Below the pieces are notes generated by a model. That model did no database searches. It was not told the origin of the DNA and worked only from the letters and a program-made list of their open reading frames with translations. Both the position numbers and the translations under genes were made by a program. A stretch of 64,000 nt of DNA from the NCBI GenBank assembly GCA_001972305.1, contig BDDD01001787.1, forward strand, positions 62,001 through 126,000, read 5' to 3'. Of this stretch, positions 16,866 to 58,280 are shown piece by piece. Origin of the DNA: Cephalotus follicularis (taxonomy: Eukaryota > Streptophyta > Magnoliopsida > Oxalidales > Cephalotaceae). Position 1 is the stretch's first letter. Every line of letters starts with the position of its first letter.

Positions 16866-17054
16866 GCATCGACACCCAGCCATAAACCATCGACGTTGTT
16901 CTTGGCTGTGACCCCTCGTAAACCGGCGACGCTTAACGCATACCGTCGACGCTTTGCCCAGGTTAGAACTGTCAACGCTTTCACGCTTTTGTCGACGCTT
17001 TGTGAAGAAATACGTCTTAATCGTCGACGCCTTGAGTAAACCGTCGAGGCTTTG
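16866..17054. repeat. GTCGAC-motif cluster 1 (in long split LTR)
   Basis: About eight copies of a degenerate palindrome such as CCGTCGACGCTTT separated by 10-20 bases. It is cut by the solo LTR at 17061 and resumes at 19437-19560 with the same motif. Confidence 0.75.
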
Positions 17055-17060
17055 CCTAGT

Positions 17061-19431
17061 TGTAACACCCCGCGCCCGCAAAGCGGACACGTGGCATTAC
17101 ACTCAATCCAATACATAATACAATGGTCGGGACTAGTAATATAAAAATGCGGAAAAACTGAAAACTTTGCAACACATAACATGCGGAAGATACAATATGA
17201 ATCCATCCATACAATACAATACAAATTCTTTACAATACCAGTCTTTTTCAATACATTACATGTCACACTTTTCACTACAATATCTCTATCAGCTCTGTGT
17301 TACCTAAGCAGTCGTGTGATCATACAGAGTCTTCAATCCTTCTATCCGCTGCTACCTTCTGCCCTACCTATGCCGCACACAAAGTACAACACAGCCCCAC
17401 CCTGAAGGATGGGGTTAGCCACACTGACTAAGCAGAAACCCCGTGTAGCATGTATGCATGTGCAATGTGCAATATCGGTGACAATCTATACAATATCAAT
17501 GTGCGGTGTACAATATCAATGCATGGCATGGAAAATGCATGCGTACAGTTGCCGAACAAACTATCCGTATGACAATGGCCCATAACAGAGCATACGGATA
17601 GGATCTATAACAATCAATCAATCAATAGCAGAAATTCGATGGTGGTGTATAAAACACCTAATCAATCAATCAATATCCCATAGAGCATGCGACCGATGTC
17701 AATATAATGTCAATAAGTTAGCAATGATCAATCCCACGGAAGGTAGTCCTTCAAAAAGGGTGGGAGATCTATCTACGGTTCTCAGACTGATCAGGTCTGG
17801 AACGCATAGATCTTCCAGCCTATGGCTGGGCCAATACAATCTTGATGAGCTACAGCTGAGGGAGCTACTGATGTCGTTAGGGAGCTATGGCCCTCAGCGA
17901 GCATCAATCGTCAATCAATCGTGCTCGTCAGCACATGCTCGTCAGCAAGACAATACAATACAAGAAACGATCGATGGAATAGGTGGACAAAGTCGACCTA
18001 ACATGCCGACGTAAACCACAAGGTCACTCTATAGGATCCATACAATACAATCAATCAATCAATCGAGTCAATACAATATTAAGTAAAGTCAATAAGTGGT
18101 GGTGTCCAATGGAGAAATGGGAACATGCGTCCATCGTACCGACTTAGACTCACAACAACACTCATGGCTCAAGCAATCGATCAATTTATCAATACAACGT
18201 TGAAGCAAGGCCGATAAGTGGTGGTGCCTAATGGAGGAATGAGAATGTGCGTCCATTTTACCGACTTAAACTCACAACAACACTCATGACTCAAGCAATC
18301 AATTGATCAGTGCAATCATTAAAACTGTTTTCAAACACTTGAACACCTCAAGTGAGGCTCCGGTCAAGTGGCGATGTGAAAAGAAGTGGAAAACTACTTT
18401 TAAACAGTTAAAAACTCCTTTCAGTACATTAGGCATCAATGTCCTTGGTAAAAGACGTCGGCGCATTTATAAAACGGTGGAAAGACGTCGATGTCTTTGA
18501 AAGACGTCAATGTCTTTCCCTATTTGTGTAGAGATCTGGCCGAAGACGTCGATGTCTTTGGGGAAAGGCATCGGCGCGTTTCAATAACAATAGTCTGGGA
18601 ATGCGCATCGATGTTCGGCATCGATGTCTTTCAAGGGGAAAGACATCTCGAGGCAAAGACGTCGACGTCTTTACTGCAGAATCAAGGATACAACACTCTG
18701 AAGAAAAAGACATCGACGTCCTTGGGCTAGGGGTTGATGTCTTTGCTGGGCAGAGTCGATTTTATGCAGAAAATAGGGCCAATCTCAAGTCAAAAACCAA
18801 TTTAAAGCTATTCTTTGAAAACCAAGGTTTTCAATCAATCATTTGAGGTTAGTAAAACTTGTTACAACCTTCAAAATTCAATTTCAATCTTTCAATTAAC
18901 AATTAGGTCAAGGGTTACTAAAAACCTTAAAAACCCCAATTCATTCATTCAATCACTCAATCAATCGTGCAATTCAATCAATCAATCAATAAAACAATAG
19001 GCAATTCAGTAAAGAAGTCCTACCAATCACTGAAGCTTCAAAAGTTGAGCTTCCAATCACTCAATCGGCTGTTACGTTGTTCAATCCGCCAGAAGGAGGC
19101 TTGCAATCACTACTTGTCAATGAAGCAGCAAATCCGAAGCTGCTATGGAGGAGGAGGCTGCTTGCTGGGAGAGAGAGAGAGAGGAAAAGGATAGAGAGAG
19201 GAAGAAGAATGAGAGAAAAATGAGAGAATGAGAGTAAGAATTGACTTTTATAGTCAATTCGACCAACTTTCCAAAACTCAGCCCAAAATCCTGACTATAC
19301 ATGCATAAAACCAATACAATCTCAATAGGTATAAGAATACCTCAATTCAGTACAATACAATACGGTCCGATGCAGTACAATACGGTATGATGTATGCATG
19401 AATAGTACAAAAGATAATTCGGGTCGTCACA
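17061..19431 (-). mobile_element. Solo LTR, Gypsy (Tekay-like), 2.37 kb
   Basis: Starts TGTAACACCCCGCG and ends GGGTCGTCACA, flanked by CTAGT (17056-17060) and CTAGC (19432-19436), a near-perfect 5-bp target duplication. The GACACGTGGCATTACAC word close to the left end matches the terminal part of the other Tekay-like LTRs in reverse, so orientation is minus. There are no genes, primer site or polypurine tract, as expected of an LTR left by recombination between the two ends. It is old, judging by its isolation. Confidence 0.75.
18433..18752. repeat. GTCGAC-motif cluster 2 (in solo LTR 17061-19431)
   Basis: About twelve copies in the variant form AAAGACGTCGATGTCTTT, spaced mostly 15-35 bases apart. 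The flanks read AAAGAC...GTCTTT, so each unit is a longer palindrome than in cluster 1. Confidence 0.75.
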
Positions 19432-19599
19432 CTAGCGTTAGAGTTGTCTACGCTTTGCTCTACCTTTGGCGCTTTGGCTTTAACCCGCGACGCTTGACGT
19501 TAACTGTCAGCCCTTAGCCTCCACACATTCGACGCTTAGCCCAGCCAGTCGGCGCTTAGCTCCCTGTTTTACACGATATGGACTGTGAAAGTTCTATAT

Positions 19600-20690
19600 G
19601 GCAACCTAAAGAGATGGGGTTTGCGGAAAAGACAATTTGCGCTAAAGGAAATCAAATAAGCATTGAAGAATCAAATAAGCAATAAAGGTAAAGAGATAAA
19701 GTTAGAGAGATTGCAAACACGGTTTATAGTGGTTCGGCTAACTCTTGCCTACGTCCACTTTTCCCAAGGACCTCATTGAGATTCCACTAGACACCTTCTA
19801 GTACACTTCGATTTTGGGTTACGGGTGCAAATCGAAACACCTTACTAGCAAGGGTTCACTCCCCTTTGATAATCCTACTAAGAGATCACTCATCTTGATT
19901 ATCTCTCTTAGGGTTCACTCCCCAATTACAAATACAATGAAAGGTTTTTGTGTTTGATGACTTGATATAACCTATACAAGGTTTGATATGAAAATGATGA
20001 AGTACTTGACACAAGCTTTGGATATGAAAGTTGTAGTTTTACACTTGATGATCTTCTGCTTTGATGTTCTTTTTGTGTGTTCTTGTTGTACTTGTGTGTC
20101 TCTCTTTGATCTTGATTCTTGGCTTCTATTTTATACTTATCTTCAGTTTATGGCCGTTGTAAAAGTAATATAGCCGCTGGTGTTGTCTTGGGAGTTGTTG
20201 TTGTAAAGACAGCTTTGTATAACTGCTTTAATGAAAGTTTCTAGCGCGCAAAGCGTCGACGCTTATGTTACTGTTATGTGCTTGAATTTGAATTTCTCGC
20301 TCAATTTGCTGACGCTTTGTTTTGAGCGTCGACTGTTTTGCTGAAACCGTTGACGCTTTCTTGATAAGCGTCGCCGCTTTGAGTCCCTCAATTGGTTCTA
20401 CAAATCTCTTGAGTAAAGCTCTTATAAGTGCTCCTTAAGCGTTGGCGTCTTGGTCTAAACCGCTGACGCTTTCTTGTGACTGTTGGCGCTTTAAGCAGTT
20501 TTGTTCTAGCTTTGAAAGTCTTCAACTGTTGACGCTTTGGTGTTAAGCGCGGACGCTTCTGTTCAAACCGTCGGCGCTTTGTTCTGTTTCTGCACTTTCT
20601 TGTTTTGTTTTGATTAATCATTTCTTCACATCAACAAACAAGTTAGGTGCTTTGTTATCATCAAAACCAGTATTGTTAGACAAAACCCAA
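19600..20690. mobile_element. Copia-like LTR block (same type as 14330-16115)
   Basis: Has the GCAAACACGGTTTATAGTGG segment with the following '...CCACTTTTCCCAAGGACCTC' (19713-19775), and the tail TTTGTTATCATCAAAACC (20652), in the same order as the block at 14330-16115. It lies inside the long split LTR. No coding region is present. The termini cannot be placed exactly. Confidence 0.35.
20240..20590. repeat. GTCGAC-motif cluster 3
   Basis: About eleven degenerate copies, for example AAGCGTCGACGCTT, CCGTTGACGCTTT and CCGTCGGCGCTTT, in the Copia-like LTR block. Confidence 0.7.
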
Positions 20691-20964
20691 AAGTCTGTTT
20701 TCAGCCCCTTTAACCCCCCCCAGACTCTTGTATTCTCAACATGGGTTCTATAGGAGGCCTTTCTACGGCCGTATAACCTATATGGAACCTCATTGAATTA
20801 ATTGATCTGAATATCAATCTTCAAAAGGGTTTTACAGCTGGAAGACCTATAGGGTCTCAGATTATGCTTGACATGGTTGAGCTTTGGTGAGATAGTCACT
20901 CACAATCTCCATTATGTCATGGAGGTCAGGGGAAATAGCTACTTAGTCTAATAGATTTGTGAAC

Positions 20965-24490: not shown

Positions 24491-24984
24491 TCCTTGTTCA
24501 TGAATTTTGAAAAGAATTAAATTTATACCGCAAGTGCACGGTTGTGCAGTAATGGGTCGAACGCTTGGAAACAAGTTAAATTAGTTCTAATCTATCAAAC
24601 CTAGGCGAAGTATTCAAAATTGAGGGTTATTATCAAAATCTACTCCTAAACATGCAAAAATAAAATAACTATTGAAACAGGAGATAAAAGCGTTGACGCT
24701 ATGTCACAAGGCATCGACCTAATAATCAAAAGCAGTGAAAGCGTTGACGCTTTGATACAAGGCATCAACGGTTATGCGCACTGAATCGAAAACTAACAAA
24801 AATCAAAGCATGCAAATACTAGATTAACAAATAGGAAATAAAACTGAATAAGATATGCAAGATAAAATCAGTTTTAGGGTAAAGAAACTCACCATAGATT
24901 ATATTGAAAAACTCACTTACTTGATTGCTCAAACTTTGGTAACTAACGGTAGCTAGGTCGATACGGAGTGTGACCGTGATGACA
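24491..24984. other. Unclassified A/T-rich block with a small GTCGAC-motif cluster
   Basis: No coding region. It lies between the end of the long split LTR and the Copia leader. It contains ATACCGCAAGTGCACGGTTG and, at 24687-24775, four copies of the motif (AAAGCGTTGACGC, GGCATCGACC). The source element is not identified. Confidence 0.4.
24687..24775. repeat. GTCGAC-motif cluster 4
   Basis: Four degenerate copies in 90 bp (GCGTTGACGC, GGCATCGACC, GCGTTGACGC, GGCATCAACG) in an unclassified block. Confidence 0.6.
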
Positions 24985-25239: not shown

Positions 25240-25490
25240 AAAGACGTCGACGCCTTTCCAAAGGGCATCGACGTGTTTTCTGGAAATTCATGAACAAGGC
25301 GTCGATGCATAACATGAGCATCAATGCGTTTCTCAAGAACTGTGAAAAAGGCATCGACGTTTATCAACAACATCGACGCGTTTCCTGAGAATATGAACAA
25401 GACATCGACGTTTACTAATAACGTCGACGTCTTTCTTGGGAATATGAACAAGACATCGACGTCTACCAAGAACGTCGACGTCTATAGCCC
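25240..25490. repeat. GTCGAC-motif cluster 5 (Copia leader, minus copy)
   Basis: About ten copies such as AAGACGTCGACGCC, AACGTCGACGTCTTT and GGCATCGACG. It corresponds to cluster 9 in the plus-strand Copia copy. Confidence 0.75.
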
Positions 25491-25768: not shown

Positions 25769-25780
25769 TCTCTGATACCA
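25769..25780 (-). promoter_or_regulatory. Copia primer binding site (initiator tRNA-Met type)
   Basis: Reads TGGTATCAGAGA on minus, one base inside the LTR end TTTCCATCA; eleven of twelve bases fit the 3' end complement of initiator tRNA-Met. Confidence 0.8.
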
Positions 25781-27817
25781 CTGATGGAAATGAACAAAAC
25801 CGAATCCAATGCCAAAATGGACAAAGGGTGTAAAGGGTGTTGAATAAAACTTAAACATACAATCATGGCAGCGGAATAACACCCTATATAACAAAACTAG
25901 TCCATAATGACACGTCCACAGATCACATGGATCACCACAACATCAACTGAATTGAATTGGTGTCACCATTACAAACAATGGTGACACACAAGCATGGCAT
26001 AAGGAAGAAGGACCAAGAATTATACCAGTGGGGCTTCTTCTTTCTTTGCCCCTACAAGCTTGAGTAGATTCCCTTTGATGTTCTCCAAGCCTCAGGAACA
26101 ACAAACAATCCAACCAGCAATGTTCAAGTGCTTGAACTCTCTCTTTCTCTCTTAGCTTAGAAAAGGTAAATTGATATTGACCAATGAAGTCAATGATCAA
26201 TCCACCCCAGATAAGCCTTTGCTTGGTGTATATTAGATGAAGTGAACACACACTGCAGAGAAGGAAATTCGAGCTCTCTTGCCCAGCAAAAACCCCAACT
26301 TTTTTCCCTTTTTCCACTTTCTGCAGAAAAATGCCTATTACTAGCCTCATCTTCTCTCTCCCAATCTCCCATTCACTTAGGACCATGGCATTCACTCCCT
26401 GGGAGTCCGAAGACATGATTCCCACGTTTCTAAAACGTGTAAAATCAAGAGAAACCGGCTAAGGATGTGAGAGAAAACGTGCCCACGAAGTGAGCTCGTG
26501 CATAGATTGCACGTTACCTTGTCACGCCCCAGTTTCAGGTAGACACACATAAGAGCAGTAAAGGTAATTAACATTAAGATTCAGCTCATGCAAATACCGT
26601 AAAATTTAAACCTTTCAAATAAGATATTAATTGCGGAAGCATTAAACTCATAAGCTAAAAAACAAGTAACGTGCATCTCATACTGCACGCTACTCAATAC
26701 AAGTCTATCATTGTTAAAAGCCCATAAACGGAGCTTGATCCATAATACATTAATCAGTAACCTCCAAAAGTCTAGTAAACCGGAAAATACGATACACAAC
26801 ACACAAAGGGACATAACCCCTGATGAAAACATTATTAAAAAACTTGTACTTCGTCCATGCTGATTCCCTAACCGGTCCACTGCATCAATCTGTGAAGTAT
26901 GGAGTTAGCCTTTGTCCTCACTCGGCTAAGTCATAAAAGTAGTTTGTGATCAACATTACATGCATGTCATGAAATGTATGCATAGATGATGCAGTGCAGT
27001 AGAAAATATCAGTTTATATATATAAAAATATATATATGTTAGCAGTAGAGTACAATAACAGTAGGGACATATATATGAAAATATATGTATGCAACAACAG
27101 TACAGTAGTAGCTCGGCTGGGGCTACATCAACAGGCACAATAATGTCTGAATAGGACCAGTAAACAGTACAGTAAGTCCACAGAGGGACTAACAAACAGG
27201 CAGGCAGTATGTGCAACGCCACCAACTCCTGTCCCCATGTTACACTCCCACTTCGGTCCCTTCTCCAGGCAACCAAGCAAGACAACAGTACAGTACAGTG
27301 AGTTACCCAGCCAACTCCTAGCTCCTAGGTCAACCCTGCCACTAGCCAACACTGGCAGTCTCCGCCACGCGACTAGTGGCTCAAACACAAACACAGTAAT
27401 TTCACAGAGCATGAACAGTGAATAGCCACAATAAACAGTGCAGTAACAGTACAGTAGTGATCGTTAGATCAACAACAGGCAGTTCATTTCAAAATATTTT
27501 CGAAAGTGGTAACATTTTAAATATATAATTCTAATAGATAGAAACTACTTTAAACAGTTCAGTAATGGAAATAGCTTTCCCAGTTTGTTTGAAAATACGT
27601 TATTAACCAGTATATATTTTCATACTCAAAACAGTGTATTCCAAGTTCACATATGCATTTCTAAATATCATAACTTAGAAATCATAATCGATTTATAGAC
27701 AGTCAATAAACAGGCAGTAAACAGTACATATGAAATGCATACAAATGCTCAAATGCATCCTAAGAAAATCGGGATCATTGGGTGTCAAAATCATAAAGAT
27801 TGTCCAAACATGACTCT

Positions 27818-28026
27818 AAAGCATCAACGTTTTCCCCTGGGCATCGACGCTTATGTCCTCTAAGCGTCGACGCTCGATCCTTGGTGTCAGCGCTTTCTGT
27901 ACCTTAGGCGTCGATGTCTTCTCCATAAGCGTCGACGTTAAAAAAACGTATTCAGTAAATAAAACGCAGTTCGCAGTACAAAGCGTCGACGCTTACCAAA
28001 GGCGTCGACGTTTTCGAGCGTCAGTC
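27818..28026. repeat. GTCGAC-motif cluster 6
   Basis: About eight copies (AAGCGTCGACGCTC, AGGCGTCGATGTC, AAGCGTCGACGTT) inside the solo LTR 26520-29279. Confidence 0.75.
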
Positions 28027-28390
28027 GTCTTCTTCCTCGCGACATGATGAACCATTAACATTTCTAACACAATTGCATGCAATCCAACATGTATAAAGCC
28101 CATAAAACCGACATGCAACATCGCATTACACATCCAGTACAATATGACATAATTTCAGTGACCAAAAACAGTTCAACAGGCCATGTAATCTATGCATAAA
28201 CATCACTGAACAAACACCAAATATTGAACACAAAATACAATTACGGCTTCCCCTACCTCTGGCTTCAAGTTAGAAGCCTTGTAAGTCCACCTATTTTAGT
28301 CCTAGAATCCGTGGTGGTCGAGCTCCCAGGTCCGAGCAGCTCCAATCCTCAAGCTCTCCAAGCTTTCAAATGGCCAGCAATGGTGGAAAG

Positions 28391-28422
28391 CTCTCTCTCT
28401 CTCTCTCTCTCTCTTCTTCTCT
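28391..28422 (+). repeat. CT microsatellite
   Basis: An almost perfect run of CT dinucleotides in the pyrimidine-rich part of the solo LTR. Confidence 0.9.
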
Positions 28423-28954
28423 CTACGAATTCTCACTGCGTTTCTCACTGGTTTCTTTTCCTTTTTTCTTTCCATAGGTGTTTAAGCAAGAGAGAGGTGA
28501 AGGAGAGGTTGCTTTTAAGCTGAGGGTTCCCTCCTCTTTCTCCCCCCTGCCTTGAATGCACACATACACACACCCCCCATGTTCTTTTCCCTTTTCCGTT
28601 TTTGTCTTCTTCTTTATCTATGTTTTGCAGGTCACATGTGTCTAGGACACTTCCCACTCTTGCATGCAATAGCTGAGCTCGTTTCTTAGCCCTTTGTCTC
28701 AGCTCTAAAGTCAGACAATGCCACACTCTCTCTAACTATCAACTGCATGCACACATGTCCCTCCCTTCTTTGCACTTGTTGCATGCTCACACATGTGTCA
28801 CCCTTACCCTCACAACTTCAGTCATGCAAGTTAGGGAGCTATATGCATGCTCAACACGTCCCCAAAGCGCCTGCCAAGACGCCTGATAAGTGGCACAAAC
28901 ATTCCACCATGCGACACGTCTATCTGCTGTTTGTGCATATCGGAACCACAACGC

Positions 28955-29085
28955 AAAGCGTCGACATTTACATGCAGGCGTCGACGCATATAGCATTTTG
29001 CCTAAAGGGCGTCGACGTCATCAACAAGCATCAACGTGCATGTGCATGGTTTACGTGCGCATCTTTGTTGTGTAGGCGTCGACGC
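28955..29085. repeat. GTCGAC-motif cluster 7
   Basis: Five copies (AAGCGTCGACATTT, AGGCGTCGACGCAT, GGGCGTCGACGTCA, AGGCGTCGACGCTTTT and a degenerate one), the second cluster of the solo LTR 26520-29279. Confidence 0.7.
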
Positions 29086-29279
29086 TTTTAACCAAAAACT
29101 GCGCCGTTTTGCTTCAATTTGCAATTTTAACATTTCTTTAACATTCTTACTCCTAAATCAACATCATTAGAGTTTGGAAAACATCATCAAAGTCGGGACA
29201 TCCGTCATTTTTTTAATTTCCACAATAAAAGTACATTTACATCATGAAATTACAACAAATGAAATTCCTGGGCGTTACA

Positions 29280-30400: not shown

Positions 30401-33167
30401 TGTCAGGACCCGTTCCTGCTCTAACTATGGGACACGTGTCCTGCCGGGGATGGAACTCCTGCCAACAACCCTCTGTAACTGAAATTGCCCGAGGAGCTAT
30501 ATTAAAACTCCTCCGGAACCTATCACGCAAAAAGCCCGAGGAGAAAGACTGGGCCAAACGCGCAACAAGCATAAAACTAAAACCTCGGAAGAGAGCACGC
30601 ACGTGCAACGTACACACTCACTGAAAAACCTGTGGACAAACATGCCCGGGGAGAAAGCCACGTGCACCGCACCTGCTCACTTAAACACCAGCAAAATAAA
30701 CAAGCCCGGGGAGAGGGCCTGGGCTGACACGCAAAGACCCTAACACCCGGGGATAGATGCACGCACGCCTCACGTGCCCACTTAAACTCCCTTGGGGACA
30801 GGCACAATGTCCCCCGGCACCTCTGCTCAACACAACAACACTAACATCAAAACGCATAGCATAACTAATGCCCGGGGGGAAACCATCATAAGCGCCCGGG
30901 GAGAAACCCACGCACCCCCCACGTGATCACTTAAACTCCACACTCGAGACCACGCATACATATATTGTCGCCTGGCGTACTACCTCCTATGCACGTCCCT
31001 AAGGATCACATAACAAAACAAACATCAAATGCACCATTTAACTTAAAACATAAAGCTCTTAACATATAACCTGTCACAGGCCTTACTCTAACATGGCACC
31101 CCTGGCCACTCTCTCCAGGGACACCTTCCCTGCTCCCTTGCCAAAGCCTAACATCATCATCACCCTGGGGACACCCTGCCTCCCCAGGGTAAAGCTCTTT
31201 AAACATAACCCATGCTCCCAAGCATAAACATAACACCCCTGCTGGGCTATCCCCCTCTAGAAACCCAAGGGCTCCCCAGCACCCGGGACAGACCTGATAA
31301 CTAAAAACTCATAACATGAAATATCCATGACATCACAAGATAAACACATCTACATACTCAAAACATCCATAAACTTTCTTGAAAGTATCCAATCATTACA
31401 TATTTGATCCCTGGCATACACACAGTGCCTTCCCTGGCATAAACATCACTGCCTTCCCTGGCAGGCAAAAGAATAACATATCCTTATCTTTCTTTACATC
31501 AAAAGCATATCATAACAAAACATCTCCCGGCAACCCTACAACAAAAAGGAGGTAAGGGAACCCAAAAGAATGCCCAAGGCAATGCAAAGCTAAACGCCCG
31601 AGCTAACGTTCCATGGTGCTGAGCTCAAAACTACCTTGCTTAGCTATCTACTATTGAGCTGGAGGATCTCCTCCGGCTGGCTGGTCTACAAAACAATATG
31701 TGAGGGGATTAGTCCAGCTGACTAAGTGACTGGGAACAAAACATCCTCTGGTGCATCCATAAAAAGGAATGCGCTGAAGAAATCTTACCATGAGCATGAA
31801 CAACTATCCCAACTGGCGAAAAGACTGTATACAACATATATCTCATGGCATACAATAAGGAAAAGCTCAAAGTACTTAAAAAACTTACTCTTTTCTCTGC
31901 TTAGCTGATTCTAGAATGTTCATGAAAGCTGAAATAAACTTAAGAATACAACTGATTAAAAGAAAGAGATCTAAAAAAGAACCGGGGTCCTTCCCGGCTA
32001 AACACCCGAGGAGAATGACTAAGCTAGAACTGGATTTTCTTTGCAATGCTTGCTTTGCTTGTTTACATAAATATACTTTCCAATTTATAGTGGCTTGAGC
32101 TGAGCTGGTTTTTGGCCTAAGCCGAGCTAGACAGCTTACCTGCCAACTCATCTGTACTTTCTTTTATTTTGCCCTAAGCCGAGCTGGGCAACTTACCTGC
32201 CGACTCATCTGTACTTTCTGTTATTTTGGCCTAAACTGAGTTGGGCAGCTTACCTGCCGACTCATCTGTACTTTCTATTATTTTGGCCTAAGCCGAGTTG
32301 GGCAGCTTACCTGCCGACTCATCTGTACTTTCTGTTATTTTGGCCTAATCCGAGCTGGGCAGCTTACATGCCGACTCATCTGTACTTTCTGTTATTTTGG
32401 CCTAAGCCGAGCTGGGCAGCTTACCTGCCGACCATTATGTACTTTGCTTACTTCATCATTGAATGCTGGGCTGGGGACTAAAAGTCCGAGGACGAGGTCC
32501 TCCTCTATAAAACCTACTGAAAGGCTCTCTATACTACTATATCTGATAACTTAGCTCAACTGTACTCACCGCTATACATTGTCCTAGCAACAATGCAAGG
32601 AGATCCAGGTATGGAACCCGGGGACAGACTCACTGGATTCTCAAAGAAAATAAGATGAACAATAAAATGCTTTAAAAGAAAGGATGTCCCACTCACAGTT
32701 CTTGCTACTTCCTTGGACGCTAACGTCCCTTCTTCTCTGCTACTCTCTTCCTCTGGCTTGTCTACTTCTTTCCTTTTTCCTTGTCTACTTCTTCCACTGC
32801 TGCGCTCGGAAAGCTTCAACTGCTAGTGGTCCAGGCGCAAGAACGAAGAAGAAGAAGAAGAAAACTAGACTCTCTCTCTCTCTCTCTAAAACTCTCTAAT
32901 CGGCAGAAGCTAGAAGAAAGGATGGCGAAATCTCAAGATATCTCACACTAATCCCAACTTATGTCGTCTTTTGTCTTGGAAGTTGGAATCTTCCTCAAGA
33001 GGCTTTGCATAAAAGTCCTTCAACTTCCACAATTCTCACTTAAACCTTGGCTTAACATATCCTTCTCTTATCCATTATTACACATAAGCCCAAAAGACAA
33101 AATCATCATATCATATAACTTTAAAAAAAAAAACTCTTAAAGCTTTAAAAAGGTACGGGGTATTACA
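30401..33167 (-). repeat. 5' LTR of the Tekay-type element, 2.77 kb
   Basis: Starts TGTCAGGACCCGTTCC, ends GGTACGGGGTATTACA on plus. Same family as 21556-24136. It differs mainly by a six-copy tandem array at 32114-32455. Confidence 0.85.
32114..32455 (+). repeat. 57-bp tandem array, six copies
   Basis: Units GGCCTAAGCCGAGCTGGGCA... with GACTCATCTGTACTTTC, repeating exactly every 57 bp from 32114 to 32399 and then breaking up. It lies in the LTR, and the sister LTR at 21556-24136 has only traces of the unit. Confidence 0.9.
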
Positions 33168-33459: not shown

Positions 33460-33649
33460 GCTTGAGGAGAATTGGACATAAAGATGATCCAAGCTCACAC
33501 ATTCTGTAAGTGTTTTAATGCTTTAATTGATTGATGAATGTTTAGAGTATGCAATATTTTGTTTGCTGCCATATTTCTAAAATGCTTTGATGTGAGAAAG
33601 TTTTTAAAAGAAAAAGTTTTGAAAAATCAAAATTTTTTGTTTTCGCGTT

Positions 33650-33875
33650 AACGTTAATATACACGTTAACGTATAAACTATCTTCTGTTTTTAGGCGGTA
33701 ACGAAAATATTTTTCCCCTTCTGTGCCTTTAGCGTCAACGCTACATATTAATGTTGACGTTTTTGCTTTCACGTCAACTATGGCGTTAACATTATTATCT
33801 CCTGTACATGAATGTACACGATTAACGTCAACGTGTATTTTAGACGTCGACGCCTAAACTCCAGATATATATAGA
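33650..33875. repeat. GTCGAC-motif cluster 8 (GTTAAC variant)
   Basis: About eleven copies, mostly with GTTAACG or GTCAACG cores (CGCGTTAACG, AGCGTCAACGC, AACGTCAACGTG) and one full AGACGTCGACGCC just before the TATA box of the downstream gene. Confidence 0.7.
33866..33873 (+). promoter_or_regulatory. TATA box before the 293-aa gene
   Basis: TATATATA directly followed by GATTTGGGGATTTTCG, about 120 bp before the ATG, with a pyrimidine-rich leader (33905-33945) typical of a plant transcription start. One complete AGACGTCGACGCC palindrome lies about 15 bp upstream. Confidence 0.6.
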
Positions 33876-33993: not shown

Positions 33994-34875
33994 ATGCCGA
34001 AGAAGCACTCATCTGTTGGAGGAAAAACTCATGGGGCAAGATACAAAGGAAGCTACACAGCAAGGAAAGTTCTTTGTGGAAGGGTTGTGGACTTCGAATT
34101 TACAACAGGTGATCACTTCTCTTTAGAACAATGGTTTTCTGCTCTAGGATGGAGAGACTATTTCACTATTAATGTCCCTTACTATGTAGAGGTTGTTAAA
34201 GAGTTTTATAGTAACTTGTTCAGTGTTAGTGATGGATGTGATGTTGTGAAAATTAAGACTAAAGTGAATAAAACAATGATAGAATTTGATGATAAGTTGT
34301 TAGGAGAGATTCTAGGTGTACCTGCTGAGGGGTCTAGATTCTTTGAGACCAAAAAATGGTCGGAAGATCCTGATTTGGTTTTAGAAGACTGTTTAAGAGT
34401 GTTTTATCCAAATGAAAATGTGTTTGGAGGCATGGAAAAGCCTACCAATTTGCTGGGTGCTGAGCATAGGCTGCTCCTCCACACTGTCGCCACTCATGTT
34501 TTACCTACTTCATGTGGGCATGAGAAGATGAGTTACAAGGATTTATACATAATGTGGCATGTGGTAAGTGGAAAGCCTCTGAATTTACCCCTTTTGATCA
34601 TGAAGAATATGATTAGATCCTCTTCTAAGGTAGATCGTGCATTGCCTTACGGGATGGTGATTACCAAAATCATTTCCCATTTTGGTATTGTGGTTAGCAA
34701 TGAAGTTGCCGCTAGCGTTGATGTAGGTGATATCTATAATGCATCTTCTTTGAAAAGGATGGGTTGGAAAAGGGAGTTTGAAGTTGGAAAAGGAAATGTG
34801 TGGCTGCCTAAGGAAGGTGGAAGGAAGAAAAGAAAGGTTGAGGAAGAAAATGTTGAGGAGCAAGGTGAACCTTAA
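33994..34875 (+). CDS. 'Putative plant transposon protein' (Transposase_32-like), 293 aa, open
   Basis: An uninterrupted frame starting MPKKHSSVGGKTHG after a TATA box and leader, the first ATG downstream. The central part (about 45-235) has the pattern FSLEQWFSALGWRDYF, YVEVVKEFYSNLF, IEFDDKLLGEILGVP, WSEDPDLVLEDCLRVFYPNE, RLLLHTVATHVLPTSCGHEKMSYKDLYIMWHVVSG, and a region near 198-230 (LLIMKNMIRSSSKVDRALPYGMVITKIISHFGI). This is the familiar plant domain called 'putative plant transposon protein' (Transposase_32); family assigned from memory. Despite the name no DDE or other catalytic triad is visible. The C-terminus is strongly charged (GGRKKRKVEEENVEEQGEP) with a nuclear-signal-like KKRKV. 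It sits between a SIRE-like gag scrap and rDNA-like repeats, so it may be an accessory gene carried by a retroelement; function unknown. Confidence 0.7.
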   Translation: MPKKHSSVGGKTHGARYKGSYTARKVLCGRVVDFEFTTGDHFSLEQWFSALGWRDYFTINVPYYVEVVKEFYSNLFSVSDGCDVVKIKTKVNKTMIEFDDKLLGEILGVPAEGSRFFETKKWSEDPDLVLEDCLRVFYPNENVFGGMEKPTNLLGAEHRLLLHTVATHVLPTSCGHEKMSYKDLYIMWHVVSGKPLNLPLLIMKNMIRSSSKVDRALPYGMVITKIISHFGIVVSNEVAASVDVGDIYNASSLKRMGWKREFEVGKGNVWLPKEGGRKKRKVEEENVEEQGEP

Positions 34876-36529: not shown

Positions 36530-37780
36530 AAAACTCATCAAAACACATTTATAAGTGAATATATACACATTTAGAACCTTATATGCAAAATGGCACGGTG
36601 GCGTGCACGGCGGCGTGCACGACAATAACACAGACGTGCACAGTCGTAGCACCCACCTGCAACGCCATGGCCCAAACGTCACCAAAACACATACACAAGT
36701 GAATATGAACACATTTAGAAGATTATATGCAAAATGGCATGGTGGCGTGCACGACCGTTGCACACACGTGCACGCCGTGTGCACGGCGACGTGCACGGTC
36801 GTAGCACACGCGTGCACGACCAAGGCCCAAGCATCACCAAAGCACATTTATAAGTGAATTAGCACACATTTAGAACCTTCTACGCAAAATGGCATGGTGG
36901 CATCCACGGCCATGCCCCAAGCGTCACCAAAACACATACACAAGTGAATATGCACACATTTAGAAGATTATATGCAAAATGGCACGGTGCGTGCACGGCC
37001 GTAGCACACGCTTGCAAGGCCTTAGCACCTGTGTTATAAGTGAATATGCACACATTTAGAACCTTATATGCAAAATAGAACGGTGGCATGCACGGCCATT
37101 GCACACGCGTGCACGACGGCATTCACAGTCGTAGCACAAGCGTGCACGGCCATAGCACCCGTATGCACGACCATGGCCCAAGCATCACAAAAACACATTT
37201 ATGAGTGAATATGCACACATTTAGAACCTTATATGCAAAATGGCATGGTGGGGTGCACGGCCGTTGCACACGCGTGAACGGCGGCTTGCACGGCCGTAGC
37301 ACATGCGAGCACGACCGTAGCACATGCGCGCACGGCCGCATGCATGGCCATGGCCTAAGCATCACCAAAACACATAAACATGTGAATATGCACACATTTA
37401 GAAGATTATATGCAAAATGGCACAGTGGCGTGCACAACCATTGCACACGCGCGCACGCTGCCGTGCACGGACGTAGAACACGCATGCACGGCCATGGCCC
37501 AAGCGTCACCAAAACATATTTGTAAATGAATATACACACATTTAGAACCTTATATGCAAAATGGCACGGCGGCGTGCACGGCCGTAGCACCCTCGTGCAC
37601 GGCCATGGCCCAAGCGTCACCAAACACATTCGTAAGTGAATATGCACACATTTCAAACCTTATATGCAAAATGACACGGTGTCGTGCACGGCCGTTGCAC
37701 ACGCGTGCATGGCAAGCACGGCCGTAGCACCCGTGTGCACGGTTGTGGCCCAAACGACACCCAAACACATTTATTAGGGA
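36530..37780 (-). repeat. Tandem array, nine to ten copies, two alternating unit types
   Basis: Each unit has a fixed core 'AGTGAATATGCACACATTTAGAA' (split here: AGTGAATATGCACAC then ATTTAGAA) plus TATATGCAAAATGGCA, followed by a variable G/C-rich part of GTGCACGGCCGTAGCAC-type palindromes. Copies near 36540, 36690, 36840, 36935, 37035, 37200, 37375, 37520, 37630 and a decayed one at 37760. Two classes alternate: '...TTATAAGTGAA...GAACCTT' and '...ACACAAGTGAA...GAAGATT'. Looks like an rDNA intergenic spacer subrepeat array. Confidence 0.8.
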
Positions 37781-37784
37781 ATAC

Positions 37785-38720
37785 ACTCATTTTTTCGCGT
37801 GAATACAAAAAATGTTTGATGAATCCCAAAGATCATCAATCTAATATTTTATTTATTGCATTACATCCACGTTAATATTTTTTTTGTTAAATGGATGCAA
37901 AAAATATTTGATTAATCCCAAGGATAATCAATCTAATATTTTCAATACAGTATGAAAATCACGTTAATATTTTTTCGTGTCGATGCCGAAAATATTTGAT
38001 TAATTTCAAGGATCATCAATCTAATATTTACGTTATTGAAGCATAAAAATATTCCCAACAAGTAACTTTTGTCATAGAAATGCTGTGAAACATGATTTTC
38101 TTGTTTTGAACATGAAATGTATATATGACGGATACGATCTGTATATATTTTCCTTTTTTTTTATAAAAAAACATGACATGTTATTTATGATTGTAAAATA
38201 TTATTGTTAAATGAAATTTTATTGGGGAGTGTTAACAAAACTTGTGTTGGCCTGTTTGGCAGGTGCTTCTATTGAAGTCTCTAGGGTCTAGAGTTCAAGT
38301 CTCAAGAGTGATAGTTATTTTTTGCAATTAAGAAATCCTATGTTTAATATGGAGTTATATTTTGGATATGATCTTATGATATAAATATTAAACTATTTTG
38401 AATGGGTTGAAAAATATTATTTAGTCCTAAGGATATATGATATTCTTACTACTAAGGTATCACAAAGTGGGGCATTTTTTTTTAAAATAAAATTCCACAT
38501 ATCTATCATAAAACTTTTTGGTGAATGTAAAAAATATGTGATTAATTCCAAGGATTAGCAATATATGTAAGATACTCCAATTGTATGTATATATGGGATA
38601 TGATATTATGTTATGAAAATCACGTTAATATTTTTTCGGGTTGATGCAAAAAATATTTGATTAATCCCAAGGATATGAGATGCCCTATGATCTTATAGTA
38701 TGAAAATCACGTTAATATAT
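37785..38720 (-). repeat. A/T-rich degenerate repeats in the spacer
   Basis: Units of about 90-100 bp with AAAATATTTGATTAATCCC, AAGGATCATCAATCTAATATT and ATCACGTTAATATTTTTTCG recur at 37820, 37900, 37990, 38530 and 38650. Middle copies are eroded. Confidence 0.65.
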
Positions 38721-46106: not shown

Positions 46107-46596
46107 TGTTAGATATAGTGACCCAACAAGCCATTAGATGGGTTGTCATATTATATCTTACCATGTATGGAACAATCTTATTCCTTATATATGATGCGTG
46201 CTAAATTTGTTATGGCTATATCACTTGTATTTTATCACATAATTGAAGTAGTTTATTAATTACCTACTTATACTAGTGATGCCCTGACATAAGGTTGGAT
46301 GCCTGGCATGGAGGCTGTGAGACGGCAAAGAAAGAAGGAGCCTTCACCCGCTGGTATAATTCTTGGTCCTTCTTCCTTTTGCCATGCTTGTGTGTCACCA
46401 TTGTTTGTAATGGTGACACCAATTCAATTCTGTTGATGTTGTGGTGATCCATGTGGTCTGTGGACGTGCCATAATGGACAGGTTTTGTTTTATTGGGTGT
46501 TCTTCCGCTGCCATGATTGTTTGTTTTGTTTTGTTCTACACCCTACACACCATAGTCCATTTATGGCTCCGATTTCGGTTTATCCGTTTCCATCAG
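46107..46596 (+). repeat. 5' LTR of the nested Copia (490 bp)
   Basis: TG at 46107, CA at 46596, followed by the primer site. The last ~270 bp match 51147-51420 nearly base for base; the first part has no clear partner at the other end. Confidence 0.8.
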
Positions 46597-46597
46597 T

Positions 46598-46610
46598 GGT
46601 ATCAGAGCGT
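46598..46610 (+). promoter_or_regulatory. Copia primer binding site (initiator tRNA-Met)
   Basis: TGGTATCAGAGCG one base after the LTR, the standard Copia primer site. Confidence 0.92.
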
Positions 46611-48422
46611 CCCACATCATCCTTGATTGAATATATATGCCTTAGATGATGTACTGATTAATGGTTTAATTAATGGATGTGTTTTGTGATCAAACTAAAT
46701 TTTCAAAGTGCCTTAATGAAAATTGCATGAAATTGGATTTCATTTTGTTTTTGTGCTGGGAATGTTGTTTTAATGTGTTTAGAATTATGTATGGAACATG
46801 CATAGTGCATTTTGGAATGCCAGAATGGTATTCCATAGTCTAAACCATTGTTTTCAGCATTTTTAGAAATGCAGAAACTGCCCAGGGGGCTATAGACGTC
46901 GACGTTCTTGGTAGACGTCGATGTCTTATTCATATTCCCAGGAAAGACGTCGACGTTATTGGTAGACGTCGATGTCTGGTTCATCCTTTTGTGAAACGCG
47001 TCGATGTTCTTGTTGGACGTCGACGCTGTTTTCAACTGTTCTTGAGAAACGCATTGATGCTCCTATTATGCATCGAAGCCTTGTTCAAGTTTTTCCAGAA
47101 AACACGTCGATGCTGTTGATAAGCGTCGACGTCTTTTATAAATAAATAAAAAATTGTTTTTAAATAAAATTTGATTTTATACATTTTGGCACTTGGAAAA
47201 TTAAAAATCATTGCTTGATTTAGTGAGAGTTTGATCAATTAACAATCCTTGAATTAAATTGAGTAATTGGTTAGTATTTATGGCATTTGTTTTGTGGTTT
47301 TATTATATTGGATATAATATAGATCTTATGCACAATGGATGGCCCGAAAAAAGACATAGACCTAGTTTATTGTTTTCTATGTGTGGATGGATTTTATTTA
47401 TTTATTATCTTTAAAGGTCTGTAATAAGGTGCCTGCGTGCACCATTTCTTTTTCCTTACTTTTGTTATTTCTCCTTGTAATTTTTAAATGAAATTTTTCT
47501 TTTCAAAAATGTAATGTTCTTTTTGTAAAAGAAGACCATGCAAGGAGAGATGGAGGAAAGGAGAAATGAAGTACAAGACTTTTGAAGGCCATGTATGCAT
47601 GGTATATGTTGTAATAAATAAATTTAAATCTTTACACCTAGTAAGACCTAGTAGTGACTTTGGGATTAAGTCATTACTAATAATGTCCTGGCCAATCCAT
47701 TGACATATTTTAGAAATATGTTCAAGGTGCATAAGATACACGTTTTGCATGATAAGCCGTAATTAATTGGAATTGGCTAATACAACCAATGAATTAATTA
47801 ATGGCATGGTATTTAAAATTTGAGACCGCAAATTTCCTCACTTCAATAATAAGTCTTAACGTAGGAACCCATGGAGTGGTTCCCCGTGGCCTTCCACAAT
47901 TTTCGTTGAGTAGTGTTCCTGGGTTATTGGTTTGTCATGCCCTAGCTGAGGCTGATGACTTGGGGACATTAGGTCAACGTCGGTGTTGGGCACCGCAAAG
48001 GGTGGCTATGTTTTAGCACTTGGACACGCCTACGTGTGGGTGTTAAAACTAGTGCATTCCAATAAAAATTGTGGGTACTTGATTTATGAAGATTATGATG
48101 GTTTGTCATACCCTAGCTGAGGCCATATTGAATCTAAGGCCGAATACTATGATTGGATCATGTATTGGATACAAATTGGCAAGAAAGCCTACCCATTGGA
48201 TATATTATAGTTTGTCATGCCCTAGCTGAGGCTATAATATGATTGCGATGGATTCCAATCCCCACTAGGAAGTTAGACTTCTCGAGTTCCATATGGGGGT
48301 ATGGGATATGATTAGAATAGTGGGAGGAACCATAAGCACTAAAGACCAAGTGTTATGGTTGTCATATATTAAAATGGAATAGATGCTGACTAAACTTATA
48401 TTTCCTTATCTAGGTTGCTAGT
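46611..48422 (+). other. Copia leader
   Basis: A 1.8-kb untranslated leader without coding region. The first ~780 bp match the minus-strand copy at 24985-25768, including motif cluster 9. Later it has a GTTTGTCATGCCCTAGCTGAGGC word repeated three times (47927, 48104, 48211), spaced about 107-177 bp. Confidence 0.6.
46890..47135. repeat. GTCGAC-motif cluster 9 (Copia leader, plus copy)
   Basis: About ten copies (TAGACGTCGACGTT, AAAGACGTCGACGTT, AACGCGTCGATG, AAGCGTCGACGTCTTT) inside the transcribed leader. Confidence 0.78.
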
Positions 48423-50511: not shown

Positions 50512-51420
50512 TTAGACTCTTAATGCTTCACTGGCCAGACAAAGGCGTCAATGTCTTTTAGAAAGACGTTGATGCCTAATTCTTTTAAAGACGTCGATGT
50601 CTTTTAGAAAGCGTCGATGTTTTTAGTGCCACATTGCATGGGCGTTGATGTCCTTTGGAAGGCGTCGACGTCTTTGAGCAGAACGTGCAACCTGTGCACG
50701 AGCTCACTTCGTGGGTACGATTTCTCTCTCATATCCAGCTTCTACCTCCTGTTCTTGCACGTTTTAGAAACGTGGGAATCATGGCTTCGGACTCCCAGGG
50801 AGTGAAGGCCATGATCCTAATTGAATGGGAGATTGGGAGAGAGAAATTGGAGGCTAGTAATAGGCATTTTCTGCAGAAAAGAAAAAAGAGAAAAAAAGTT
50901 GGAATTTTGCTGGGCAAGTGAGCTCGGATTTCACTCTGCATATTGTGTGTGTTCTTTTCATCTGTGATACACCAAGCAAGAGCTTATCTAGGGTGGATTA
51001 ATCATTGACTTCATTGGTCAATATCAATTTACCTTTTCTAAGTTAAGTGAGAGAGAGAGAGTTCATACACTTTATCATTGCTGGTTGGATTGCTTGTTGT
51101 TCCTGAGATTTGGAGAACATCAAAGGGGAATCTACTCAAGCTTGTAGCGGCAAAGAAAGAAGGAGCCTTCACCCGCTGGTATAATTCTTGGTCCTTCTTC
51201 CTTTTGTCATGCTTGTGTGTCACCATTGTTTGTAATGGTGACACCAATTCAATTCTGTTGATGTTGTGGTGATCCATGTGGTCTGTGGACGTGCCATAAT
51301 GGACAGGTTTTGTTTTATTGGGTGTTCTTCCGCTGCCATGATTGTTTGTTTTGTTTTGTTCTACACGCTACACACCATAGTCCATTTATGGCTCTGGTTT
51401 CGGTTTATCCGTTTCCATCA
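50512..51420 (+). repeat. 3' LTR-containing end of nested Copia
   Basis: Ends TTTATCCGTTTCCATCA. 50690-51420 matches the reverse complement of 25782-26519, and 51147-51420 matches the 5' LTR. No coding region. The LTR start is not clear because the MITE lies near it. Confidence 0.65.
50540..50690. repeat. GTCGAC-motif cluster 10 (Copia 3' region)
   Basis: Six copies (AAGGCGTCAATGTC, AAAGACGTTGATGCC, AAAGACGTCGATGTC, AAGCGTCGATG, GGGCGTTGATGTC, AAGGCGTCGACGTCTTT) in 150 bp. Confidence 0.75.
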
Positions 51421-55065: not shown

Positions 55066-55081
55066 CTTTAAAGAGGGAGGA
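55066..55081 (+). promoter_or_regulatory. Polypurine tract of plus-strand Tekay
   Basis: CTTTAAAGAGGGAGGA directly before the LTR start TGTAATGCCC. Confidence 0.88.
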
Positions 55082-56125
55082 TGTAATGCCCATAAATATT
55101 ATAAAGAATTATTATTGGGCTTTGAAGAACTATTCTTCTCCATTGGGCCAAACTGGGACATGAGTAATATTACATTTGGGCTCAAAATGGAGGAACAAAA
55201 GAATGGCCAAAGAGGTTGAAGTCGACCCGCATTTGTTGGAAAACGCCTGGAGAATTCTGGATTCTTCCTTACACCATTTTATAAGGCGAGAGACACCCAG
55301 GAGATGCACTTTTGGTCACTCTTACACACTTTCATTCTAGAGAAATCGAGAGAAAAGAGAGATAGTGGGAGATGGGGGCCATATGTTGGAGAAAAGTGAG
55401 GAAGAAGACAAGAAGAAGAACTTTCTCGGGAAAGTTCGGCATCTTACGCGCCTCGCATATATACCCATCTCCTGGAGTTGTTGGAGTAGTGGAAGAGTGA
55501 AGGAAGCCGAGGTGCGCAGCAATTTCTTCCAGGAAGGAGTCCAGAATCTAAGCAAAGGATCGTGCGATCTTCGTTTTCAACCAATTTTAGGTAAGATGCT
55601 ATATGTCTGAGCTCCTACCAGCATATGTGTGTTGTTTATCCTGTGTGATATGTTATTGTATGTGTGCCTTGTATGTGTTGTTGTGTGTAAAGTTGTATTG
55701 ATGTGAATTGTGTTATGCTTGTTAGATTAGGATTCCTATTTGTCTTTGTGTCGGGGATTTATGTTGAATCGTTGTATTGGTGATATGGAAAAGCTCAGTA
55801 CATGAATAAGTACTTGGAGGAAAACCCCAATGTTGAGCTAGGCTAGTCTTGAGAGGACTCAGAGCTTCTTCGCTCGAAGTCAGACTAGTCCTAAGCATGC
55901 CGAGCATGCCAGACCATGCGTCTCTCGAGCTTCTTCGCAAAAAGACTAGCTATACTGTCATTCCTCTTTTACTCCAAAACCAATTCCCCAGTTTATAACA
56001 TGAATAAGGGAAGTAATGTTGATGATATTAAGGAGAGAAGAAATACAGAGTTCTACATGTGGGCAGAGATAGGAATCAGTAGAGATAAGCCTCTCCATAG
56101 GCCATTTGTTGTAACCCTCCTCAAG
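55082..56125 (+). repeat. 3' LTR of plus-strand Tekay, first ~1 kb
   Basis: Begins TGTAATGCCCATAAATATT and matches the reverse complement of the LTR 40428-42461, including 'CAGTAC.TGAATAAGTACTTG' and 'CTTCTTCGCTCGAAGTCAGACTAG'. It stops at the solo LTR that begins at 56126. Confidence 0.8.
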
Positions 56126-56839
56126 TGTCACGCCCCAAACCATGAGAGTAAACCCCCGCGACTCAACATGTGATATACAATCCGTTCAGTTCAGTCAGTC
56201 ATATAACTTGTACTCTAAAAGTGCTATAAATTTAAAACTTTAAATCAAAGTCATGCAAGCAGAATAATCATCCATATAAATATATTCTGACTCTTATAAT
56301 TTCCCAAAAATCGGGCATTTAATATCCGTTTATCGCACTATGCCCCCTGTAAAGAAAAACACATTTTATATAATCACACTCTCGAAGGAGGAATCAACAG
56401 TTTATAAATGGGCTCAGCCTTCAGCAACCACAGCTTAACTCATAATTACATCATTCTAATACCTCAATTGATGAACCTATCCATATCCAATACATCAACA
56501 CACATATCATAAGCACTGCCACATATCGGCATGTCAATAGCTGAAATAAAACATGTCTCTATATTGTCTCTTGTATCTTAGATTGTCTCTTACACATGTC
56601 AAGACATATAAATCCGTACAGACCAGCTATAAAGACAGAGCCCTTTATAAAACTCATATAAACAAATCCATAAGCAAAACCACAAGATCATGCATAAGAT
56701 CATTAACAAAAACGGTTATAGAAAACCAGTCCGTCTCGGTCTATTTCACTGCAGCCCAACACCTGTGCCTGACACATTCCATTACAATGAAATGAGTCAG
56801 CGACATATAGTCGGGTAGGTATACTATATACGATGTATG

Positions 56840-57050
56840 CAACAGTATGCATCAGTATGACAGTGTGACAGTGTAGTAGTGTAACAGTGTACGGTATAAC
56901 TGTGTAACGGTATAACTGTGTAACAGTTTACGGTGTAATAGTGCACGATATAACAGTGTAACAGTGTACAGTATGACAGTGTAATAGTGTATGGTATAAC
57001 AGTGTACAGTGTAACAGTATAACAATGTACAGTATATGTATTCATGGCAT
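56840..57050 (+). repeat. Low-complexity CAGTGTAACAGT repeats
   Basis: About twenty short units (CAGTGTAA, CAGTATAAC, GTGTACGGT) of 8-11 bp in the solo LTR; a second zone of CAGTAACAGTAAC lies at 57340-57560. Confidence 0.8.
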
Positions 57051-58127
57051 ATTAAATGCCTGAATGACAGTTGCGGACAACTTCGATATACCAACAGCCC
57101 CTAAGCGGGGTATACCTAGCTAGTCCTAATCATATCAAGGCCATAGGCCTATAGACACTCAGTAAACAGTCAGTAACATTACAGGGGAACAAACAGTCCA
57201 TAAGGTCAAGTACTTTTCTGTCTCTCCGGTCCGATATAGTACCCCCACCGTCTATACACCCTCCGTGTCATAGCCGTGTGGAGCATAGGATAACACTGGC
57301 CACAAAACAGTACAGTAGTGTTAGACCCGAAGGTACCAGTCAGTAACAGTAGTGCTAGACCCGAAGGCGCCAGCCAGTAACAATAAAGCTCTCAATAACA
57401 GTAACAGTAACAGTATCCACCAGCCAATAACAATTGAGCTCTCAGTAACAGTAACAGTATCCATCCCTAATACAATGACTCTCGTAGGTCACTAAGAGGG
57501 GAGGATTAACAGTATCGGTAACAGTAACAGCATCCATCCCTCAGGCGATGACTCCCATAGGTCACAAAAAGGGAGGATTAACAGTGAGGTATGGCCAAAC
57601 ATCCATAATACTTCATAACGGAAATGAAGATTATGAATGGGTTATCCCGTACAGTCTCAAACAATAGTAATCATAACAGTAATCATACAGTACCGATACC
57701 CGTAATAGTATTATAATAGAAATGATGGGGACCTAAAGGATCAAGTAAAATTCACATCCGTCAAAACAGTTATAAAACAGTTTTCAGTAACGGTTTTCCG
57801 TAACAGTATTCAGTAACAGTTTTAGTAATAGTTGTTGGTCCCTATCGGAGTTTGTAAAACAATGGAGAGGAAGTCCAATTAGGATATCCGCGTTCAGATG
57901 TCCCAAATGAACTATCCTAACGATTCTTGAAAACCATTTGTATAAAACTCCTTTTTATTGAATTTTCTTCAAGGAATCACTTTGAAACTTGATTTGTAGA
58001 TTAAAACGGTTAAACGATGAATTCCATATGTTACAAGGCCTTAGAGAGGCTTCCTATGGAATCTATTTAGAAAAGAAACAGTTTAAAATTGAAAACAATA
58101 AGAAACAATGGAATTTCGGCCAACATG

Positions 58128-58280
58128 GCACTAAGCGTCGACTTGTTAAAAAAACCAAAACACAAAGCATCAACTAGTTTAACGTTAAAAGCATGGAAGC
58201 GTCGACGGTTTTGAAAGCATGAGTATAAAGCGTCGAGGGTTTTAGAAAGCATAAGTATAAAGTATTGACGGTTTTGACAG
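58128..58280. repeat. GTCGAC-motif cluster 11
   Basis: Five copies (TAAGCGTCGACTTG, AAAGCATCAACTAG, GAAGCGTCGACGGTTTT, AAAGCGTCGAGGGTTTT, AAAGTATTGACGGTTTT) in the solo LTR 56126-59362. Confidence 0.65.

Follow-up and report, generated by a model that had tools for sequence, protein, structure and literature searches.

Short palindromes in many copies are known from the Sirevirus Copia retroelements. In the available parts of their description (Bousios 2010, PMC2829016), these palindromic repeated motifs (RMs) occupy the upper half of the long terminal repeat (LTR) from 200-400 bp, and are CpG-island-like; more of them precede the env-like gene. The RM differs from element to element, a CGG-CCG signature is present in nearly all, and the motifs were reported as Sirevirus-specific; the grapevine RM is CGGTCGACCG. 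The text consulted gives no spacing for these motifs. Here, we describe arrays of another palindrome, motif 1 (WARRCGTCGACGYYTW, core CRTCGAYG), in a stretch of 64,000 nucleotides from Cephalotus follicularis (the window; bases 62001-126000 of contig C1787 in the 1.577-Gb assembly). The same motif was analyzed in 20 stretches of 10 kb each (200 kb), drawn at random from that assembly. Sirevirus RMs are the closest known system: motif 1 is likewise a short palindrome in many copies, and it shares its GTCGAC centre with the grapevine RM. In contrast, the CGG-CCG signature is absent, both from motif 1 and from a second Cephalotus palindrome, dialect 2 (CAGTCGACTG), and motif 1 is also found in Gypsy elements (locus L018), one palindrome being common to Gypsy and Copia in one genome. 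Motif-1 arrays are close in kind to the Sirevirus motifs, but common to both superfamilies. In the portions of the literature available for searching, which were queried for motif 1 and for such arrays in Cephalotus, no description of this motif was found.

Two further systems share part of these features. The target motifs of the VANC proteins of VANDAL DNA transposons form dense arrays in non-coding parts of transposable elements (TEs); according to the accessible text, they have one orientation, reach high density in no TE family but their own, and are paired with a TE-encoded protein (Hosaka 2017, PMC5735166). The motif-1 arrays resemble them in density, growth by tandem repeats, turnover between relatives, and the existence of dialects, but they are not confined to one TE family. 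ONSEN and other COPIA heat-responsive elements (HREs) are described, in the part of the report consulted, as clustered host-factor sites gained independently in LTR families (Pietzenuk 2016, PMC5059998). Motif 1 would similarly provide clustered sites for a putative single factor in different LTR families. HREs differ in comprising few units per LTR, in being found in Copia families, in having a known factor (HSFA2 for ONSEN), and in sequence.

Motif 1 is strongly enriched. The hexamer GTCGAC occurred 34 times in the window, where 5.3 were expected from dinucleotides, and the core octamer CGTCGACG 21 times, against an expectation of 0.085. In the random stretches, CGTCGACG was found 27 times (mean of 20 Markov simulations 0.15). 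Genome-wide, it had 223,473 copies and its reversal 8,375, a generous control because the reversed octamer has no CpG. Likewise, AAGCGTCGACGCTT had 18,108 copies versus 15 reversed, and AAGACGTCGACGTCTT 6,402 versus 26. When all 256 palindromic octamers were ranked by observed/expected counts in 240 kb of random loci (24 loci), CGTCGACG came first (34 vs 0.25, 133-fold) and AGTCGACT second (67 vs 1.66, 40-fold). Both are GTCGAC-centred and outranked TA runs (28- and 23-fold). The next palindromic octamer with at least 10 copies was CATCGATG (5.5-fold), and a control palindrome of the same composition, CGACGTCG, was found once (expected 0.25). The left and right sides of motif-1 sites paired beyond chance (z 4.48), confirming dyad symmetry.

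For site detection, a symmetrised 20-bp matrix was built on the window and the 200 kb of random stretches, with the threshold set on one shuffle. It gave 265 matches, versus 18 in the shuffle (80 vs 5 for the window). Most of them (246/265) fell in 39 clusters of at least three sites, hereafter called arrays; the shuffle had none. Eleven arrays were in the window and 28 in the random stretches, where they occupied 13 of 20 loci. The fixed matrix was also applied to four held-out loci (40 kb) outside its training set. It found 60 matches, whereas 20 shuffles averaged 3.2; three of the four loci held 10 clusters between them, and the shuffles none. The initial annotation had listed 11 clusters, and exactly these were recovered by the matrix, at 16870, 18437, 20257, 24694, 25248, 27825, 28962, 33755, 46900, 50549 and 58139. 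Motif-1 arrays are real and genome-wide, and their motif counts are not due to chance.

The 39 arrays formed eight groups when compared by BLAST with the motifs masked (E 1e-3, single linkage, some links short). Eight of the 11 window arrays are in the same host element or family as another. Overall, the 11 arrays represent about five or six host families, with four arrays in one Copia family and two in one Gypsy-type LTR. The hosts had been described as all different. Gypsy and Copia hosts are indeed both present, but there are fewer hosts than listed. The statement that elements do not align around the clusters holds between five window groups (six without a 20-bp link to the array at 18433) and fails within groups. 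It had further been argued that common descent alone is insufficient, and between groups this stands: the flanks do not trace all arrays to a single ancestral repeat, and the hosts belong to two superfamilies.

Sites within arrays are regularly spaced. Among 207 distances between neighbouring motif-1 sites, 105 were 19-22 bp, whereas free placement of sites within the same spans gave a mean of 35.3 and a maximum of 51 (2000 draws). Three large groups surpassed every draw (29/51, 34/75 and 25/46 distances), and five small groups with 35 distances in all exceeded the mean of the null draws without passing their maximum (6/15, 6/11, 2/3, 2/4 and 1/2). The same spacing was found in the held-out loci (24/46) and in loci fetched by the motif (24/42, or 21/36 after removal of L003, whose arrays duplicate those of L002). 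A matrix-free test covering the first 100 genomic occurrences of CGTCGACG had 10 of 15 gaps of up to 60 bp at 19-22 bp, some of them probably from duplicated arrays. Secondary maxima at 31-32 and ~51 bp agree with whole turns of the helix. The recurrence of the 19-22 bp spacing across groups supports the shared factor that the initial annotation had offered as one option.

These data bear on two explanations by descent. A single ancestral array could have moved from element to element, through recombination or template switching, and have been passed on by descent alone thereafter. Within groups, arrays or flanks are homologous, and some links between clusters are short. Between groups, however, there was no flank similarity, site number and order differ, and no common sequence was visible by eye in the 3-6 bp spacers of pairs 19-22 bp apart. 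We consider such an origin quite improbable, and by flank comparison one ancestral repeat does not appear to explain the arrays between groups. A single mobile cassette was rejected, as no common flanks were found between groups at E 1e-3. Alternatively, a CpG-rich unit could have expanded neutrally like a microsatellite, without any function. Tandem units of 19, 21, 32 or 51 bp compose some arrays, so duplication contributes to them. Yet the top octamer ranks of the two GTCGAC-centred palindromes, the identical spacing in unrelated groups, and the skewed decay and CpG retention described below make purely neutral expansion extremely improbable.

Four window arrays belong to one Copia family. 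On the plus strand, a partial 5' LTR (46323..46596; 98.5% identity to the 3' copy over 273 bp) is followed by a primer-binding site (PBS; 46597..46608), a leader array of 10 sites in 51-bp tandem units (46892..47135), and the Copia gag gene (PF14223; 48414..49547). The 3' LTR comprises at least 50682..51420. An array of six sites (50541..50674) lies at its 5' end or just before it, the start of this LTR not having been located. A position in U3 is likely, because an array with a homologous downstream flank in L007 precedes a leader-type array. A minus-strand copy has an LTR homologous to 50682-51420 (25781..26515), an iMet-type PBS with one mismatch (25769..25780), and a leader array of 10 sites, also in 51-bp tandem units, located 3' of the PBS (25240..25484). 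The two leader arrays represent the same leader in two copies, with 10/10 sites in common. An array of three sites (24686..24774, minus strand) lies downstream and belongs to the same copy. Both PBSs were called with a string that we take to be the Copia one.

The Gypsy-type LTR (26520..29279, minus strand; ends TGTAACGCCC...GGGGCGTGACA) was assigned from its end sequences, with no LTR pair seen. It contains arrays of six sites (28954..29110; offset 177-317) and eight sites (27817..28014; offset 1273-1454). A Gypsy host was also found in L018: its pol gene has RVT_1, SH3_Tf2-1 and a Chromo match below threshold. Downstream of pol come a purine tract and an LTR beginning TGTAACACCC, with an array 178-315 bp in. 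In three LTRs (window 29279-26520, L018 and L023), the LTR-start sequence and the beginning of the first array are 177-209 bp apart, resembling the upper-half placement of Sirevirus RMs, and further arrays lie 1.1-1.5 kb in. Locus L027 abuts L018 and carries the 5' LTR, with a matching array and a PBS. Together, the two loci (C1684:53028-71027) contain one Gypsy element whose two LTRs differ in size: 1.6 kb with two extra motif-1 arrays, and a further 2.8-kb block, are present in the 3' LTR and absent from the 5' LTR. Since L005 and L023 share the array order at similar distances, loss of the 1.6 kb from the 5' LTR and its insertion into the 3' LTR are equally likely.

The remaining window arrays have less certain hosts. 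Arrays of seven sites (16862..17053) and of four sites in 32-bp tandem units (58131..58274), neither with an assigned strand, were grouped by BLAST solely through locus L015. An array of 11 sites (18429..18743, no strand) has an unclassified host, and its sole link to group 2 is a 20-bp match. On the minus strand, an array of nine sites (20249..20580) lies 264-579 bp from the LTR-start-like sequence TGTAAAACCC at 20836. The array at 33645..33856 is treated below.

Not all elements carry arrays. Six random loci had neither motif 1 nor dialect 2, with the qualification that a 10-kb stretch may not include the LTRs of an element. By eye, the open reading frames (ORFs) of three of them (L008, L011 and L017) resemble the Gypsy element at 3.9-9.0 kb of the window. 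The others were a Copia locus (L014) and two loci in which no retroelement ORF was seen (L019 and L020). In the window, ORFs at 816-3267 (+) face a Gypsy gag-pol at 3890-8968 on the opposite strand (-), with no motif cluster there. The arrangement resembles that of elements with an antisense accessory ORF.

Decay of the sites is skewed. The CpG observed/expected ratio was 2.13 in motifs, part of this by construction since the motif is defined by its CpGs, and 0.66 in spacers, 0.56 in flanks and 0.57 in the genome. The full CGTCGACG core is retained in 48/246 sites, and 262 of the 345 core departures are CpG transitions. A role in methylation, suggested in the initial annotation, is thereby supported indirectly only. 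In the outer CpGs, the inner base had changed 145 times (2G>A 80, 7C>T 65) and the outer base 38 times (19 and 19); matrix-free counts of single mismatches agreed (29 inner vs 7 outer, p 0.0003). Deamination affects the two strands equally, which suggests that C at -4 and G at +4 are being maintained; the alternative is that CATCGATG represents an old variant. In each of the three pairings of three related LTR starts, conservation was higher in motifs than in spacers and flanks (identities of motifs/spacers/flanks 0.912/0.819/0.735, 0.900/0.875/0.779 and 0.887/0.775/0.616). Taken with the slightly poorer preservation in young copies and the array turnover in two other comparisons (both below), this pattern would be expected from selection during propagation combined with decay after insertion.

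Such decay would also be expected if the arrays were host silencing marks, bound by a plant factor that brings RNA polymerase IV and RNA-directed DNA methylation (RdDM) to retroelements, like REM-GDE1. The REM-GDE1/CLSY3 siren motif TTTTGCTTAT has a 1-nt spacer and 223 places genome-wide in Arabidopsis, according to the available sections of two reports (PMC12270911, PMC8752594). As with motif 1, its tandem sites have a fixed spacing, and there they are read by plant factors predicted to dimerise (PMC12270911, in part). However, the siren motif is a rare direct repeat and not a palindrome, and differs from motif 1 in sequence. Moreover, elements should shed silencing marks, whereas, in the three related LTR starts, conservation is higher in the arrays than in the flanks. 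We regard silencing marks as rather unlikely.

Another possibility is that neighbouring palindromes pair in the transcript as RNA hairpins, with a role in packaging, dimerisation or production of small interfering RNA. The 19-22 bp spacing would leave loops of 3-6 nt, and six of eight arrays folded better than shuffles (z -2.25 to -11.51). In addition, palindrome clusters of maize Sireviruses attract small RNAs, as summarized in the accessible part of PMC10760457, which describes Bousios 2016. Two arrays did not fold (z -0.58 and 0.69), and distances of 31-32 and 51 bp are also common. The inner stem of close pairs was no better than that of random partner sites (z 1.22, p 0.12; 85 non-redundant of 105 close pairs), and pairs 25-80 bp apart had greater inner pairing (z 4.61) than close ones. 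Close pairs exceeded random ones in the outer stem (z 3.86), within-site pairing (2.69 and 2.42) and same-side likeness (3.95 and 2.84), as family relatedness would give. With inner-stem pairing not supporting it, we judge the hairpin explanation unlikely.

In our assessment, motif-1 arrays are probably enhancer-like cis-regulatory arrays for a putative dimeric factor, gained repeatedly by retroelements. Symmetric sites, fixed centre-to-centre distances, free spacer sequence, and positions in U3, in leaders and before an accessory gene together make a protein-DNA lattice the best supported explanation. We infer that each palindrome would be bound by a symmetric dimer, with neighbouring dimers about two helical turns (19-22 bp), sometimes three (31-32 bp), apart on the same helix face. 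The dimers would act jointly as an enhancer in LTR U3, in leaders and before the accessory ORF. Unrelated Gypsy and Copia lineages may each have acquired and kept arrays that aid element transcription, with tandem duplication of one- or two-site units enlarging them. Each core has up to three CpGs, the methylation of which probably blocks binding; only unsilenced copies would then respond, and silenced copies would lose their CpGs. A separate Copia lineage would use this lattice with dialect 2.

Candidate factors were compared with the half-sites. The initial annotation had pointed to a bZIP-type core. We reject an array of such ACGT cores, as ACGT was found in only 80/492 half-sites (at least one in 69/246 sites, both in 11), and A at -5 together with G at -3 was under-represented (odds ratio 0.54, p 0.004, with half-sites treated as independent). 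W-boxes were rejected as well (TTGACY in 3/246 sites), and inspection of the matrix did not reveal ONSEN-type HREs (nTTCnnGAAn units). CBF factors prefer the core RYCGAC, that of the dehydration-responsive element (DRE), which occurred in 124/246 sites only.

Several observations weigh against an enhancer array. Beyond 23 bp, the helical signal is modest (R 0.24, p ~0.004 near 10.25 bp), and adjacent distances agree better with a period of 8.5 bp (R 0.295). Some equal spacings are generated by tandem duplication (units of 51, 21, 19 and 32 bp), and some arrays fold strongly as RNA. The A excess at -3 may reflect the old variant CATCGATG and not skewed decay. Arrays are generally not near TATA-like sites (1.73/kb within the first 100 bp and 2.0-3.07 at greater distances, with 3.41 overall); a general TATA-proximal role is thus unsupported, although the array at 33645..33856 does touch a TATA-like run. 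Pooled over 11 hand-picked, partly overlapping comparisons, conservation differed little (motifs 0.801, flanks 0.778, spacers 0.755). Young copies keep motifs worse than flanks (0.925 vs 0.953 and 0.912 vs 0.942), as expected because CpGs decay. Two comparisons share only 3/8 sites (motifs 0.558 vs flanks 0.766, and 0.607 vs 0.734), and there the arrays have turned over. The most diverged comparisons are weak, because unrelated matrix matches share ~60% by an estimate from the matrix.

Dialect 2 had 113 matches with at most one mismatch in the 240 kb of random loci, versus 4 in a shuffle, and formed 16 clusters in 9/24 loci (for example L013:2587-2965, L016:5162-5537 and L029:3757-3892). Its spacing was also regular: 59 of 85 distances were 19-22 bp (null mean 9.1, maximum 20), 40 of them exactly 21 bp. 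Among the 20 loci, none of 13 dialect-2 clusters was within 300 bp of a motif-1 cluster.

Dialect-2 sites were also found before genes of the family PF20167 (Transposase_32, putative plant transposon protein). Such genes were found in seven sources, namely the window and, by translated search, six of the 24 random loci (L007, L009, L012, L013, L016 and L023), and 169 relatives were found for the window protein. In one subfamily, dialect-2 sites were located ~120-195 bp before the start in 5/5 genes with the start in view, with two to four exact sites plus near-matches per gene; in L016, they were at -182, -161, -142 and -121. The start in L007 is outside the view, the start used for L009 should lie ~20 bases further upstream, and just 168 bases precede the gene in L012. 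In L013, the gene lies just 3' of a Copia pol (RVT_2), in an env-like position; one dialect-2 host is thus Copia, and the copies upstream of a gene in env position resemble Sirevirus RMs in dialect 2 only. The L016 gene lies between 986-bp direct repeats (96.7% identical) with dialect-2 arrays inside, and its carrier looks like an LTR element because of these repeats. PF20167 is an accessory ORF of one Copia lineage and is abundant in this genome. Dialect-2 arrays also occurred in four loci in which translated search found no PF20167 gene (L006, L018, L028 and L029).

The window PF20167 gene (33994..34875, +; 293 amino acids) encodes a protein 23-27% identical to that subfamily. At the equivalent upstream place, it has not dialect 2 but an array of the variant ACGTYRACGT (33645..33856, +), in which three sites pass the matrix and others, seen by eye, are weaker. 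The last site is immediately 5' of the TATA-like run TATATATA. The window also contains a 57-bp tandem repeat (5.9 copies, 32110-32445) and a region of complex tandem repeats that includes a long open frame on the reverse strand (36531-37792).

PF20167 proteins could themselves be the readers, as DNA-binding activators or anti-silencers whose subfamilies recognize their own GTCGAC- or GTYRAC-centred lattices in their own promoter and LTRs, parasitised by unrelated Gypsy and Copia elements. We give this idea little probability. VANC proteins carry DUF1985, and six PF20167 proteins had no DUF1985 match at E up to 10, which gives no support for a relationship on this basis. The AlphaFold model of PF20167 was poor (predicted local distance difference test, pLDDT, 41.9). 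If the idea were true, PF20167 would represent a VANC-like system in LTR retrotransposons, common to superfamilies.

If motif-1 arrays are enhancers as we propose, retroelements of two superfamilies would use one regulatory code in one plant genome. Scaling the matrix matches in the random stretches, corrected for the shuffle (185-13 per 200 kb), to 1.577 Gb gives ~1.36 million sites, if the sampled contigs are representative. Whether different elements converged on one host (or element) factor could thus be tested on very many natural sites. A concrete motif and spacing would be at hand for finding the factor, and the arrays would offer a natural test of methylation-gated enhancers. Such a code may also explain the joint expansion of several retroelement families in the Cephalotus genome.

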